DNA of 32,868 bases, from the NCBI GenBank assembly GCA_016875405.1, contig VGRJ01000044.1, positions 1 through 32,868 on the forward strand. Reading direction: 5' to 3'. The notes below the pieces were generated by a model, which was not told where the DNA came from, made no database searches, and saw only the letters and a program-made list of their open reading frames with translations. Numbering within the stretch: position 1 is the stretch's first letter; every line of letters begins with the position of its first letter. Source of the stretch: Deltaproteobacteria bacterium (GTDB lineage Bacteria; Myxococcota_A; Polyangia; Polyangiales; Polyangiaceae). The translations under genes and the position numbers were made by a program. Below, piece by piece: positions 7,516 to 13,667 of this stretch.

Positions 7516-7535
7516 GCACCGAAGGGCGTCGACCG

Positions 7536-8963
7536 ATGGGCGCACCAATCCTGGTGGTCGACGACGAGCCGAGCCTCCGGCAGGTCCTCGAGATCGCGCT
7601 TCGGCGCGGCGGCTACGAGGTGAAGACCGTGAGCGGTGTCGCGGCCGCGTCGCGGGCGATCGGCGACGCGAAGGTCCCGTTCCCGCTCGTCCTCACCGAC
7701 CTCGTCATGCCCGACGGCTCGGGCATGGATGTGCTCGCCGCGGCGCGCGCCCGCAGCAGCGACACGCAGGTCATCGTGATGACCGCGTACTCGACCGTCG
7801 AGTCGGCGCTCGACGCGATGCGCAGCGGCGCGTACGACTTCGTGACGAAGCCCTTCTCGCCGGCGGAGATCGTCACGCTCGCATCCAAGGCACTCGAGAA
7901 GAACGCGGTCGTCGAGGAGAACCGACGCCTCAAGGCAAAGCTCGCCGCACTCGCCCCGACCGCCGACGAGGTGTTCGGTCACAACGAGACGATGCGGAAG
8001 GTGGGCTTGCTCGTCGAGAAGGCCGCCGCGAGCAAGGCGACTGTGCTCCTCACGGGCGAGAGCGGGACCGGCAAGGAGCGGGTCGCGCGCATCCTCCATG
8101 AGCGGAGCGACCGACGCGCAGGGCCGTTCTGCGTCATCAACTGCGGCGCGCTTCCCGAGGCGCTGATGGAGAGCGAGCTCTTCGGACACGAGAAGGGCGC
8201 CTTCACGGGCGCGACCTCCGCGACGACAGGGCTCTTTCGACAGGCTCAGGGCGGGACACTGCTGCTCGACGAAGTCGGAGAGCTGCCGCTCCCGCTGCAG
8301 GTGAAGCTGCTCCGCGTGCTGCAGGAGAAGCGCGTGCGCCCCGTCGGGAGCTCGAGCGAGGTGCCCGTCGATGTGCGCGTCCTCGCCGCGACCAACCGCG
8401 ACGTCGAGGCCGAGGTGACCGCGGGCCGCTTCCGCACGGACCTCTATTACCGACTCAACGTGCTGCGGGTCGAGCTGCCGCCGCTGCGCGAGCGAGCTGG
8501 GGACGCGCGGCGGCTCGCTCAGCAAATGGTCGCGCGCTTCGCCGGCGAGGTGGGCAAGCCGATCGAGGGCCTCACCCCTGCCGCCCTGCGCGCGCTCGAC
8601 GGCTATGCCTTCCCCGGCAACGTGCGCGAGCTCGAGAACATGATGGAGCGCGCGGTCGCCCTCGCGTCGGGGTCGTGGCTCGACGTCGACCTCCTGCCCG
8701 ACGCGCTCGTTCGGCGGGCCGCCACGCCGAGCACCGGCCTGCTTCTCCCCCCCGAAGGCCTCGCGCTCGACGACGTGCTCGCCGACGTCGAACGTCGCCT
8801 CATTCAGCAAGCGCTCGAGCGAACTGGCGGCGTCCGCAAGCGCGCCGCGAAGCTGCTCGGCATCTCGTTCCGGTCGATCCGCTACCGCCTCGACAAGCTG
8901 GGCGTCGCGACCGACGACGCAGACCCGACCGAGGAGTCCGAGGATACAATCGACGAGAGCTGA
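7536..8963 (+). CDS. pilR: Sigma-54-dependent response regulator, PilR-like
   Basis: The 475-residue NtrC-family activator has three parts. The receiver domain (about 3-120) has acidic residues VDDE, phospho-acceptor Asp in [18 protein letters not shown] and the Lys of FVTKPFSP. The AAA+ domain (about 140-375) has Walker A GESGTGKE, the sigma-54 contact loop GAFTGA, Walker [14 protein letters not shown] and the arginine-finger region. A Fis-type helix-turn-helix follows ([25 protein letters not shown]). Such proteins open sigma-54 promoters after phosphorylation by a histidine kinase, which is not in this window. The pilR name is inferred from its place directly upstream of pilin genes with sigma-54-type promoters. 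ATG at 7536 has GAAGGG 9-10 bases upstream; an in-frame GTG at 7512 overlapping the lipoprotein stop is an alternative start. Confidence 0.88.
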
Positions 8964-9285: not shown

Positions 9286-9888
9286 ATGCGTTCGATTCGC
9301 CGCCGATTCAGAGTCCGAGGGTTCACATTGGTTGAGCTCATGATCGTCGTCGCCATCATCGGCGTCCTCGCGGCCCTCGCGATTTACGGTGTCCGCCGTT
9401 ACCTCGCGAGCGCGAAGACCTCGGAGGCGAAGAACACCATCGGCGCGATCTCGCGCGCGTCGCAAGCTGCTTACGAGCGTGAGAATGCAGCGTCCGAGGA
9501 GATTCCCGAGGGCACCGAATCGAAGGGCGCGAGCCACAGCCTCTGTGGCTCCGCGACCACCGTCCCGGCCAACGTCCCGGCGGGCAAGAAGTACCAGCCG
9601 CTGACGACCAACGGCAAAGACTACGACTCGGGCGACATGACCACGGGCTGGAAGTGCCTCAAGTTCAGCATGACCCAGCCGCACTACTATCAGTACCACT
9701 ACAGCAAAAACGCGGCCGCCGCGAACTCCACCAACCCGGCCAAGTGCGCCGCGAACTGCTACGAGGCTCAGGCAGTCGGCGACCTCGACGGCGACACCGT
9801 GACCGCCCAGTTCTCGCAGACCGGCATCATCACCAACGGCGAACTCAAGAAGGCCACGCAGATCCACATCAAGGACGAGTACGAATGA
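9286..9888 (+). CDS. pilA: Type IV pilin, major-type (copy 1)
   Basis: The 200-residue prepilin has a basic 12-residue leader ending in Gly, the cleavage and methylation site RG|FTLVE with the conserved Glu5, and the hydrophobic assembly helix (LMIVVAIIGVLAALAIYGVR). After processing by a prepilin peptidase, the mature subunit would polymerise into a pilus. The 188-residue globular part has four cysteines (in SHSLCG, GWKCLKF, AKCAANCYE), enough for two disulfides, a WKCLKF...QPH core, and a C-terminal acidic loop GDLDGD. AAGGAG lies 9 bases before the ATG. A sigma-54 promoter precedes it. It is nearly identical to the gene at 11526. Twitching-pilus use is inferred, not shown. Confidence 0.93.
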   Translation: MRSIRRRFRVRGFTLVELMIVVAIIGVLAALAIYGVRRYLASAKTSEAKNTIGAISRASQAAYERENAASEEIPEGTESKGASHSLCGSATTVPANVPAGKKYQPLTTNGKDYDSGDMTTGWKCLKFSMTQPHYYQYHYSKNAAAANSTNPAKCAANCYEAQAVGDLDGDTVTAQFSQTGIITNGELKKATQIHIKDEYE

Positions 9889-10087: not shown

Positions 10088-10630
10088 ATGACTACCCGCC
10101 GTCGCTTTGACACAGCGCGCGCCTTCACGTTGGTGGAGGTGATGATCGTGGTGGCGATCGTCGGGGTGATGGCTGCGCTCGCCGTGTTCGGAATCCGCAA
10201 GTACCTCATGGCGGGCAAGGCGAAGGCCGACGCCGACGGCGCGATGCTCGGGATGGCATCAGCGATTCGCGCCTACTACGACGCGAACCGCGGCTACCTC
10301 AACTGCAGCGAGAGCTACGAGGACTACTACCCGATGGCCCCCACCGGGAAGAAGCATCCCCTCAACAACCCGAACAACCCCAGGCACGCCTGCTGGTCCC
10401 TCTACAACGTCCGGATGGGCCCGACCTACATGTCGTTCGCCGTCCGCGCGGGAACGAAGAATGAAACGCCCACGACGCCGACCGGGTTCAGCGTGACGTT
10501 CCCGAAGCCCAAGGAGCCCTGGTTCGTCCTCGTCGGCGCGCTCGACCTCGACGACGACAAGACCTTCGCGCGCTACATGACTTCCTCGTTCTCCCCGGGC
10601 GTCATCTTCCGAATCAACGAGGGGGAGTGA
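10088..10630 (+). CDS. Divergent type IV prepilin
   Basis: The 180-residue prepilin has a basic leader and a class III signal in which the usual Gly at -1 is replaced by Ala (TARA|FTLVEVM). The assembly helix (VMIVVAIVGVMAALAVFGIR) and Glu5 are intact. The globular domain is distant from the neighbouring major-type pilins but keeps their layout: two Cys (YLNCSES, HACWSL), a W-x-L-x-x-V core (CWSLYNVRMGPTYMSFAV) and a C-terminal acidic loop (LDLDDDKTF) followed by a final strand ending in Glu. It is probably a minor pilin or an alternative subunit; nothing in the sequence decides which. It follows its own sigma-54-type promoter. Confidence 0.88.
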   Translation: MTTRRRFDTARAFTLVEVMIVVAIVGVMAALAVFGIRKYLMAGKAKADADGAMLGMASAIRAYYDANRGYLNCSESYEDYYPMAPTGKKHPLNNPNNPRHACWSLYNVRMGPTYMSFAVRAGTKNETPTTPTGFSVTFPKPKEPWFVLVGALDLDDDKTFARYMTSSFSPGVIFRINEGE

Positions 10631-10818: not shown

Positions 10819-11397
10819 ATGGCACCACCTCCGACCGCTCCGCTCCGCGTCGCCTCCCTGCGACGTCATCGCGCCACGGAGGGATTCACGCTCGTCGAGC
10901 TCTTGGCCGTCGTAGCGATGATCGGCGTTTTGTCCGCGCTCGCGGTGGTGGGGTTCAAGAAGTACATGAACTCGACCCGAACCGCGGACGCACGGGCAGT
11001 GATCGGTTCGATCCGCATCGCAGAGGAGTCCTATCGCGCTGAGACGCTGACGTACCGTACTTGCGGGACCAGCCTTTCGGACTGGTATCCGGGAACGCCC
11101 AACGGAAAGAAGCGCAATTTCAACGGCTGGACCTCGCACTCTCGGTACGACGATTGGCGAATCCTCAACGTCACCGTCGACTCGCCGACGACCTTCGGGT
11201 TCTCGGTGGTTGCAGGGGCACCGGGCGAGAAGGCCCCGAACACGAACACCAGCTTGAAGCCGGCCTGGCCAAGCCCAACCTCCGAGCCGTGGTACGTGAT
11301 CCAGGCCGCTGGCGACAACGACGGAGACGGAGTGCTCTGTTACCTCGTCTCCTCGTCATTCAACGGCGAGATCTACGTCGAAAACGACACGGAGTGA
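10819..11397 (+). CDS. Divergent type IV prepilin
   Basis: The predicted 192-residue prepilin has a basic leader of about 28 residues ending in Gly, then EG|FTLVELLAVVAMIGVLSALA, so it should be a normal substrate for prepilin peptidase. The globular part shares with its neighbours a W-x-x-L-x-V core (DDWRILNVTVDSPTTFGFSV), an acidic loop (GDNDGDGVLCYL) and a final strand ending in an acidic residue pair and Glu. Two cysteines (YRTCGTS and VLCYLV) could pair. The frame is open upstream to 10627, but an upstream start would put a very long leader before the helix. The 188 bases before it hold a sigma-54-type promoter. Function as a minor or alternative pilin is inferred. Confidence 0.87.
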   Translation: MAPPPTAPLRVASLRRHRATEGFTLVELLAVVAMIGVLSALAVVGFKKYMNSTRTADARAVIGSIRIAEESYRAETLTYRTCGTSLSDWYPGTPNGKKRNFNGWTSHSRYDDWRILNVTVDSPTTFGFSVVAGAPGEKAPNTNTSLKPAWPSPTSEPWYVIQAAGDNDGDGVLCYLVSSSFNGEIYVENDTE

Positions 11398-11525: not shown

Positions 11526-12125
11526 ATGAAACGCAGGATCAAACTCAGTAAGCGCGGCTTCACCCTCGTGGAGCTCATGATCGTCGTCGCCATCATCGGC
11601 GTCCTCGCAGCCCTCGCGATCTACGGTGTCCGCCGTTACCTCGCGAGCGCGAAGACCTCGGAGGCGAAGAACACCATCGGCGCGATCTCGCGCGCGGCCC
11701 AAGCTGCTTACGAGCGCGAGAACGCAGCGTCCGAGGAGGTTGCTGAGGGTACCGAGTCGAAGGGCGCGAGCCACGACCTCTGTGGCACCGCGACCATCGT
11801 CCCGGCCAACGTTCCGGCGGGCAAGAAGTACCAGCCGCTGACGACCAACGGCAAAGACTTCGACTCGGGCGACATGACCACGGGCTGGAAGTGCCTCAAG
11901 TTCAGCATGACCCAGCCGCACTACTATCAGTACCACTACACCAAAAACACGGCCGCCGCGAACTCCACCAATCCGGCCAAGTGCGCCGCGAACTGCTACG
12001 AGACGCAGGCAGTCGGCGACCTCGACGGCGACACCCTGACCGCCCAGTTCTCGCAGACCGGCATCATCACCAACGGCGAACTCAAGAAGGCCTCTCAGAT
12101 CCACATCAAGGACGAGTACGAATGA
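11526..12125 (+). CDS. pilA: Type IV pilin, major-type (copy 2)
   Basis: The 199-residue prepilin has an 11-residue basic leader (MKRRIKLSKRG) cleaved before FTLVE. The mature 188 residues match the gene at 9286 at all but about 12 positions, all but one of them outside the buried N-terminal helix region, and keep the same four cysteines, the WKCLKF...QPH core and the GDLDGD loop. GAAAGGA lies about 10 bases before the ATG. Unlike copy 1 there is no recognisable sigma-54 promoter directly upstream, so it may be read from an upstream pilin promoter or from an unrecognised one. A strong intrinsic terminator follows. Confidence 0.93.
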   Translation: MKRRIKLSKRGFTLVELMIVVAIIGVLAALAIYGVRRYLASAKTSEAKNTIGAISRAAQAAYERENAASEEVAEGTESKGASHDLCGTATIVPANVPAGKKYQPLTTNGKDFDSGDMTTGWKCLKFSMTQPHYYQYHYTKNTAAANSTNPAKCAANCYETQAVGDLDGDTLTAQFSQTGIITNGELKKASQIHIKDEYE

Positions 12126-12157: not shown

Positions 12158-12195
12158 GGGGCGGTCGGCGTGGAGCCGGTCGCCCCATTTTTTTT
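12158..12195 (+). terminator. Intrinsic terminator after second pilA copy
   Basis: GGGGCGGTCGGC (12158-12169) pairs with GCCGGTCGCCCC (12175-12186), with two G-U pairs, around a GTGGA loop. A run of eight T (12188-12195) follows. This is the best rho-independent terminator in the window and separates the pilin genes from the downstream leaderless homologue. Confidence 0.93.
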
Positions 12196-12249
12196 GGTGT
12201 ATTCTTGGAGGCGAGCCAGGATCTGGCTCATCGAGACCGAGACGACGAC

Positions 12250-12747
12250 ATGGCCCGGACGTGGAGCGCACCCGAAATCGCGGCGCTGATCGCGGTAGGA
12301 GGCAGCCTGACCATGGTTGCCGTGCCGGCCTTCATCCGGAACCTGAGCTTCTCGAAGATGAGCGAGCCGATCGACGGGCTCGACCGCATGGTCACGGCGG
12401 CCGTGGTGTATTCGGAAGGTCGCCCGCAGAACCTCAGCTTCCCACCTTCAGCCCCATTGACGCCCGAGAAGGTCCCGCGCGGCGTCGAGGAGCGCGACCC
12501 CGATGATGCCTGGGAGCACCTCACCTGGAGGTCGCTCGACTTTCGGTTCGATCAACCTCACGGCTTCGCCTTCCGCTTCGAGAGCGCCTTCGATGCGCAG
12601 ACCGGCGTCGCGCGCTTCGTGGCGACTGCCCACGGCGACCTGGACGGAGACGACGTCCTCTCGACGTTCGCGGTACGCGGCGAGCGCCTACCGGGCGACG
12701 GGGCGCGCGTCCTGCCTGGGATGTTCGTCGATCGGGAGGTCGAGTGA
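12250..12747 (+). CDS. Leaderless, degenerate pilin homologue
   Basis: The predicted 165-residue protein aligns by eye with the pilins upstream: a hydrophobic N-terminal helix with Glu at the pilin Glu5 position (WSAPEIAALIAVGGSLTMVA), then VPAFIRNL and, further on, TWRSLDFRFDQPHGFAF, which matches the WKCLKFSMTQPHYYQYHY core of the major-type pilins. A C-terminal loop HGDLDGDDVLSTF and terminal Glu follow. It lacks the Gly-1 and the FTLVE cleavage box, so it should not be processed normally. The cysteines are also gone. Start is ATG 12250; a TTG at 12205 is possible. It overlaps the next gene by 4 bases. It may be a membrane-anchored decoy, a regulator of assembly, or a decaying paralogue. 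Confidence 0.78.
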   Translation: MARTWSAPEIAALIAVGGSLTMVAVPAFIRNLSFSKMSEPIDGLDRMVTAAVVYSEGRPQNLSFPPSAPLTPEKVPRGVEERDPDDAWEHLTWRSLDFRFDQPHGFAFRFESAFDAQTGVARFVATAHGDLDGDDVLSTFAVRGERLPGDGARVLPGMFVDREVE

Positions 12748-13667
12748 AGCGTCGCCTGCGCGACTGGCTCGTTCCTCTTGCCGCGCTCACCGTCGCCGTT
12801 GGGCTGGTGCGTGAAGCGCGCCCGAAGGTGTTCGCCGAGCACGCCCGCGTGAAGAACACCACCGAGGCCTATCTCCTCCCTCCCCCTTCGCAGCTGCGCA
12901 CGCTGACGCTCGGCTACGACACCGCCGTGTCGGATTTGCTCTGGGCTCACACGCTCGTCGCCCAGGGGATTCACCTCCAAGAGCGCAGACGCTTCACGAG
13001 CATCGTGCAGCTCTACGAGGCGATAAACGAGCTCGCCCCGACGTGGCGTACGCCCTACCTCTTCGCCGATGCGCTCATCACGCTGCAGTCTGCGGCGATC
13101 GGCTTCGACGAAGTCGCTGCGACGCGTCGCATCCTGGAGCGCGGGGTTCAGAACCGGCCGCTCGACGCCGAGCTGTGGCTCAACCTCGGCCAGTTCGTCG
13201 CCTTCGTCGCGCCCGCGAGCTACCTCGAAGACCGACCCGAGCTCGCAACCACCTGGCGACGAGAAGGTCTCGCGTACCTCGAGCGGGCCGCAGAGCTGGG
13301 CGCATCTTCGAGCATCGGATGGCAGGCGCTAGGGGGTGCGGCGCGGCTTGCGCGCGAGGGCAAGCGTGACGCCGCCATCCGCTTCTACGAGCGCCAGTAC
13401 GCCGTGACCGAGGATCCGGAGCTGAGGCGGACCATCGAGCGCCGCCTCACGAAGCTGCTCGGCGAAGAGCAGCGCGCGAAGATCGTCGAGCGGCGCAAGG
13501 CGTTTGACGCAGAGCGGACGGCCGAGTTTTCGTGGCTCGGCGACGACGACACGAGCTACCTGCTCCTAGGACCGCGCCTGCGCGCGAGCTGCGTCGGGAA
13601 GGACCGCGACAAGACGACCTGCGCGACGACCTGGCGAGCCTGGGCCGAGGCGCGCGAGGCCCACTAA
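12744..13667 (+). CDS. TPR-like membrane-anchored protein, pilin-locus partner
   Basis: The 307-residue product has an N-terminal anchor (DWLVPLAALTVAVGLV) after a basic start, then an alpha-helical region with TPR-like helix pairs (SIVQLYEAINELAPTWRTPY, ILERGVQNRPLDAELWLNLG, AAELGASSSIGWQALGGAAR, IRFYERQYAVTEDPELRRTI) at about residues 85-240. It most likely faces the periplasm. TPR proteins serve as scaffolds, and some (for example Tgl of Myxococcus) are needed for pilus assembly, but this is not a Tgl match I can assert. GTG start overlaps the stop of the leaderless pilin homologue (GTGA), so the two are translationally coupled and may act together. Confidence 0.8.
   Translation: MKRRLRDWLVPLAALTVAVGLVREARPKVFAEHARVKNTTEAYLLPPPSQLRTLTLGYDTAVSDLLWAHTLVAQGIHLQERRRFTSIVQLYEAINELAPTWRTPYLFADALITLQSAAIGFDEVAATRRILERGVQNRPLDAELWLNLGQFVAFVAPASYLEDRPELATTWRREGLAYLERAAELGASSSIGWQALGGAARLAREGKRDAAIRFYERQYAVTEDPELRRTIERRLTKLLGEEQRAKIVERRKAFDAERTAEFSWLGDDDTSYLLLGPRLRASCVGKDRDKTTCATTWRAWAEAREAH

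Follow-up and report, generated by a model that had tools for sequence, protein, structure and literature searches.

Gene content of the pilin locus

The analysed DNA, referred to here as the window, comprises 32,868 nucleotides of a Polyangiaceae contig; the named relatives nearest to it are Polyangiaceae MAGs, Sorangium and Polyangium. Four canonical pilin genes, encoding RG, RA or EG directly before FTLVE, are followed by a hairpin and then by the pair of genes starting at 12250 and 12744. The features are as follows (a slash marks the boundary between residues –1 and +1):

9286 to 9888, + strand: canonical major-type pilin sharing 92% identity with that of 11526
10088 to 10630, + strand: canonical pilin with Ala(–1), ARA/FTLVE
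10819 to 11397, + strand: canonical pilin, EG/FTLVE, start codon uncertain
11526 to 12125, + strand: canonical major-type pilin, RG/FTLVE, immediate upstream neighbour of the pair
12158 to 12186, + strand: terminator-like hairpin lying after the last canonical pilin and ahead of the pair, a 12-pair stem followed by a T run
12250 to 12747, + strand: predicted leaderless pilin paralogue of 165 aa, with MART as its only leader, W5 as mature +1, S2, E5, G14 and P22 kept, and no Cys
12744 to 13667, + strand: TPR protein of 307 aa, with a GTG start (of GTGA), an N-terminal membrane helix, TPR-like helices and a C-terminal Cys pair

The 92%-identical pilins at 9286–9888 and 11526–12125 flank two divergent pilins, which suggests a recent duplication or gene conversion around minor-type genes. 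A gene for an NtrC-type response regulator (about 7530–8963), a candidate pilin regulator, lies upstream of the cluster. In the host genome one prepilin peptidase was found, plus traffic ATPases.

The initial annotation had reported that the 12250 frame overlaps that of a TPR-like anchored protein by GTGA and that a strong terminator separates both from the pilins. Both open reading frames and their overlap (12250–12747 with 12744–13667) are present, and the 12-pair stem with its T run was found at 12158–12186 as the strongest of 6 such sites, where 3.3 are expected by chance. The two further genomes of the genus and one additional locus have a terminator-like site in the same place; at two others tried none was found.

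Pilin homology and N-terminus of the 12250 product

The 12250 protein reads MART followed by WSAPEIAALIAVGGSLTMVAVPAF (beginning MART/WSAPE). Alignment to Myxococcus xanthus PilA (8tj2) placed T4 at –1, W5 at about mature +1 and E9 at the position of Glu5; the start codon thus lies only four residues ahead of mature +1, and Thr stands in place of Gly(–1). Alignment and frame reading therefore bear out the retained Glu5, the Thr at –1 and the absence of cysteines that had been noted earlier. Besides Glu5, three more residues typical of type IVa pilins are retained (Ser/Thr2, Gly14 and Pro22), and a single hydrophobic helix (residues 7–33) was found in the sequence as well as in the predicted model. 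A class III signal peptide, that is a leader of 6–26 residues ending in Gly or Ala, is absent, the leader being four residues long with Thr(–1).

An ordinary-length leader would require a true start further upstream, and the frame is indeed open to a TTG codon at 12205. We consider this start very improbable. The 19-residue leader that it would yield is acidic and again lacks Gly(–1), and in the congeners an in-frame stop directly upstream (at –5 in G114 and –10 in G072) rules such a start out, for which reason it was rejected; most relatives likewise carry an in-frame stop that forbids a leader of this type.

A profile built from 28 orthologues matched M. xanthus PilA (8tj2) with an E value of 4e-5, query residue 5 pairing with mature residue 2, and the fold alignment with the same protein begins at mature residue 1. 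Against the window's own pilins the profile matched over the full length (domain E 9e-20 for the 9286 pilin and 1.5e-18 for the 11526 pilin), in agreement with the core that the initial annotation had seen in common with the major-type pilins. The predicted structure (pLDDT 88) shows a broken N-terminal helix (7–33, 38–55) and a four-stranded sheet. Its top three fold matches were type IVa pilins (M. xanthus, Neisseria and PAK), with modest scores (Z 6.3, 5.8 and 5.8; 120–123 residues aligned; rmsd about 8). Foldseek alone ranked no pilin high for this model, and it was a second aligner that found them. Sequence and predicted structure agree on pilin homology, for which the Z values alone would be weak. 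The homologous N-terminal hydrophobic helix with Glu5, together with the pilin head, marks the 12250 product as a type IV pilin homologue, even though a Pfam search of 28 family members returned no match in any of them, N_methyl included.

Conservation of the pair and loss of the cleavage site

Pilin and TPR gene occurred together in 40/40 genomes of the window's family, the pilin always directly upstream, and in 27 of the 31 named loci, Sorangium and Polyangium among them; in many of the named loci the genes overlap by 4 or 14 bases. The initial annotation had described a pilin mimic that lacks the site for prepilin peptidase and is coupled to a membrane protein of TPR type. The sequence and the 40/40 pairing support this description, and the pair is conserved together as far as the family is concerned; in other families the TPR gene often occurs without the odd pilin. 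Order-wide, a non-canonical pilin adjoins the TPR gene in 81/104 loci. It lies directly upstream of the TPR gene in the window's family and mostly directly downstream in other families, and upstream-type and downstream-type odd pilins, which fall apart in a tree of the mature part only, may belong to more than one orthologous line. In a lichen-associated relative, L196, the leaderless pilin (1241–1726) and the TPR gene that follows it 1.7 kb later are separated by two canonical pilins.

As some genomes are present in both sets used (L176 and G072:C7, for instance, are matching contigs of equal length), distinct sequences were counted, and start codons of orthologues were assigned by position. 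Among 51 distinct family orthologues, the –1 residue was Ser in 23, Arg in 8, Gly in 6, Gln and Pro in 3 each, Thr, Glu and Ala in 2 each, and Asn and Val in 1 each; 43 of the 51 thus have neither Gly nor Ala at this position. The nearest start lies 3–5 residues before +1 in 41/51, and an in-frame stop limits the leader to at most 5 residues in 26 of the 45 non-Gly orthologues. The canonical pilins of the same loci, taken as a control (n = 208), carried Gly (197) or Ala (11) and nothing else. The residues that follow the site are well preserved in the family orthologues: Ser/Thr at position 2 in 50/51, Pro22 in 51/51 and Glu5 in 41/51, with Gln at position 5 in 8/51. Gly14 is conserved as well, as is the head motif FPPSAPLTP...TW.L.F...H...GDLDGD. 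Chance can be excluded, because the odd N-terminus is conserved in the whole family, and judging from these alignments the 12250 product very probably represents a conserved leaderless pilin.

Gly(–1), together with a longer leader, persists in six family orthologues and in many sequences outside the family. On the tree of the mature part, about 9 changes of the Gly(–1) state are required, and well supported branches force no fewer than 4 of these; shuffled labels give 22–26. Loss of the site is likelier than gain, because all canonical pilins have it, and the pattern points to a loss that was clustered, old and repeated; the lineage of the 12250 protein would have shed the prepilin-peptidase site and nearly the whole leader. 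Homologues with an intact site had been named beforehand as a sign of a recent lesion. Such homologues do exist, but a decaying copy that recently lost its start and site is rejected decisively, as the same leaderless state spans whole genera, including Sorangium and Polyangium, reading frames are intact, head residues are invariant, and selection is strongly purifying (dN/dS of 0.05–0.10 between the window's genome and two congeners, a rough estimate as dS is high).

In another family of the order (f5, genus g26), 16 sequences have a short, mostly seven-residue leader, mostly with Arg(–1) (MSRGRPR/LSLIE), and in loci such as L095, L107 and L142 the TPR gene comes first and the odd pilin after it. 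Here the loss was apparently a separate event. Two orthologues of the 12250 protein (L188, 5438–5926, and L191, 5441–5929), which read MRISGRPLVEYV and MRIGGRPLVEYV, respectively, have three extra residues in the membrane helix and a shifted Glu, and depart still further from a pilin N-terminus.

The TPR partner

Between its membrane helix and its TPR-like helices, the 12744 product carries a conserved segment, DVYxLPPP..LSLGYRAALADLLW, in which, across a diverse set, Pro46, Leu56-Gly57 and Gly75 do not vary and Asp64 hardly varies. The form YxLPPP..LSLGYR.ALADLLW is well conserved phylum-wide, and neither Pfam nor NCBIfam has a family for these TPR proteins as such. TPR_14 of Pfam matched 14 of 25 members, the window's own protein falling below the curated cut-off, and structural matches of the model were led by TPR folds (E about 0.01); Pfam match and helical-repeat fold together identify the family as TPR proteins. 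A PDB sequence search with the protein gave generic TPR/HAT matches only. dN/dS of the TPR gene was 0.13–0.28 (the same three genomes; again rough, with high dS).

The TPR family was found in 227/282 genomes across the phylum. Of 40 distant loci in other classes, about half have a canonical pilin gene whose end lies no more than about 300 bases upstream of the TPR gene, and no leaderless pilin was seen there. The linkage of TPR and pilin genes thus looks older, and the leaderless pilin like a later addition. It is mainly because this linkage appears to predate the leaderless pilin that we read the TPR protein as a putative pilin-handling factor. A literature search for TPR genes beside pilA returned nothing relevant. 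A PilGHI-type ABC-transporter set as in M. xanthus was considered and rejected, as no open reading frame with Walker A and signature motifs was present within the flanks covered (up to 3 kb downstream) of the order's TPR genes.

Proposed role and comparison with known systems

Processing by prepilin peptidase counts as the step that defines pilin-like subunits, and to our knowledge no described bacterial prepilin peptidase accepts Arg, Pro, Gln, Glu or Val at –1. Bacterial leaders have 6–26 residues and invariably end in a Gly that processing cannot do without, and Glu5 is not required for processing but is for homopolymer assembly (PMC4471445); Ala is used by pneumococcal pilins (PMC8727766). 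On the basis of these published rules, the 12250 protein is predicted to remain unprocessed despite the peptidase and traffic ATPases of its host, and neither cleavage nor N-methylation would be expected. A literature search for leaderless or unprocessed pilins yielded nothing relevant.

The uncleaved protein would have a cytoplasmic tail of 3–5 residues, mostly containing Arg, and a periplasmic pilin head; such a tail would bar it from the filament and retain it in the inner membrane. Co-translated with the membrane-anchored TPR protein, it may form a non-filament complex that binds canonical pilins by pilin-type contacts (Ser/Thr2, Glu5, Pro22 and the head) and holds them or passes them to the assembly machine. 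As a whole, we give this explanation, an uncleaved pilin paralogue in an inner-membrane adaptor complex with the TPR protein, an even chance of being right; the adaptor role in pilin handling falls slightly short of that. The initial annotation had proposed that the pair may sense or gate pilin subunits; a part as assembly adaptor has no lower probability. Prepilin that is neither processed nor glycosylated harms Synechocystis (PMC8546353), and the odd pilin is therefore likely kept at a low dose; the upstream terminator, found in some relatives only, fits this. Against the adaptor complex, slow cleavage after Ser, Ala or Thr at –1 is conceivable, orthologues with Gly(–1) may be processed, in which case non-cleavage is not essential to the role everywhere, and the conserved Ser2 and Glu5 could also fit entry into filaments.

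Such entry is what an unusual minor pilin would do, acting as initiator or base of the pilus, with the short tail tolerated or the peptidase cutting after Ser, Arg or Thr. The conserved Ser/Thr2, Glu5, Gly14 and Pro22, the Gly(–1) kept in some orthologues and a possible broad specificity of the one prepilin peptidase found speak for this possibility, which we nevertheless regard as unlikely: the leader is under the six-residue minimum, and Arg, Pro, Gln, Glu and Val all occur at –1, where Gly is called absolutely critical (PMC4471445). Moreover, Gly or Ala is kept in 208/208 canonical pilins of the same loci. In Pseudomonas, PilS senses pilins through the membrane, and a membrane-retained pilin mimic on a TPR scaffold might similarly report on, or compete with, the pilin pool, signalling for instance to a kinase of the PilS type or to a regulator of the NtrC type, like the one encoded upstream in the window (about 7530–8963). 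However, no kinase gene was seen in or beside the pair and the TPR protein has no signalling domain, which makes a sensor quite improbable. The adaptor complex is favoured over both.

More tentatively still, the whole family and, apparently independently, other lineages of the order may have turned a pilin into a permanently membrane-resident, never-matured subunit, a "dead" pilin with its pilin-type contact residues intact that serves as machinery and, together with a TPR partner, works on the pool of pilins from within the membrane. A conserved pilin without a leader but with pilin–pilin contact residues lets one ask, in a natural setting, what purpose processing serves; the pair also draws attention to a TPR protein, so far undescribed, whose linkage to pilin genes extends to most Myxococcota genomes sampled.

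With type IVa pilins (M. xanthus PilA, 8tj2) the odd pilins share the N-terminal helix and head in a helix-plus-four-strand layout, Ser/Thr2, Glu5, Gly14 and Pro22. They differ in having a leader of 3–5 residues in place of a class III signal peptide, no Gly(–1) and no N_methyl Pfam match, and in several orthologues Gln replaces Glu5. PilF, PilW and Tgl, the pilotins, are also TPR proteins of type IV pilus systems, but they are outer-membrane lipoproteins acting on the secretin. The 12744 product has an N-terminal membrane helix and is linked to pilin genes; its N-terminus (VKRRLRDWLVPLAALTVAVGLVREARPK) contains no Cys and thus no lipoprotein signal with Cys(+1), which sets it apart from the pilotins.

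GspK of type II secretion systems lacks Glu5, keeps its cleavage site and is a filament subunit. ComGG (PMC8727766) and GspK resemble the 12250 product as conserved accessory subunits with a deviant pilin N-terminus; ComGG, without Glu5, keeps the cleavage site and enters the filament, the reverse of the 12250 product. FlaF and FlaG of the archaellum (PMC4307647) are, as proposed for the odd pilin, single-pass accessory proteins outside the main filament, FlaF having a partial archaellin (pilin-like) domain. Both are archaeal and have no TPR partner, and FlaF binds the S-layer with an immunoglobulin-like head. TfpY of Pseudomonas is encoded beside pilA, probably contacts pilins without being incorporated and helps assembly (PMC11841053). 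TfpY-like proteins thus share with the odd pilin a gene beside the major pilin, a periplasmic head and the proposed part of a non-incorporated, pilin-binding adaptor. The parallel would be one of logic and not of homology, as TfpY has three membrane helices, whereas the 12250 product combines one pilin-type helix with a separate TPR partner.
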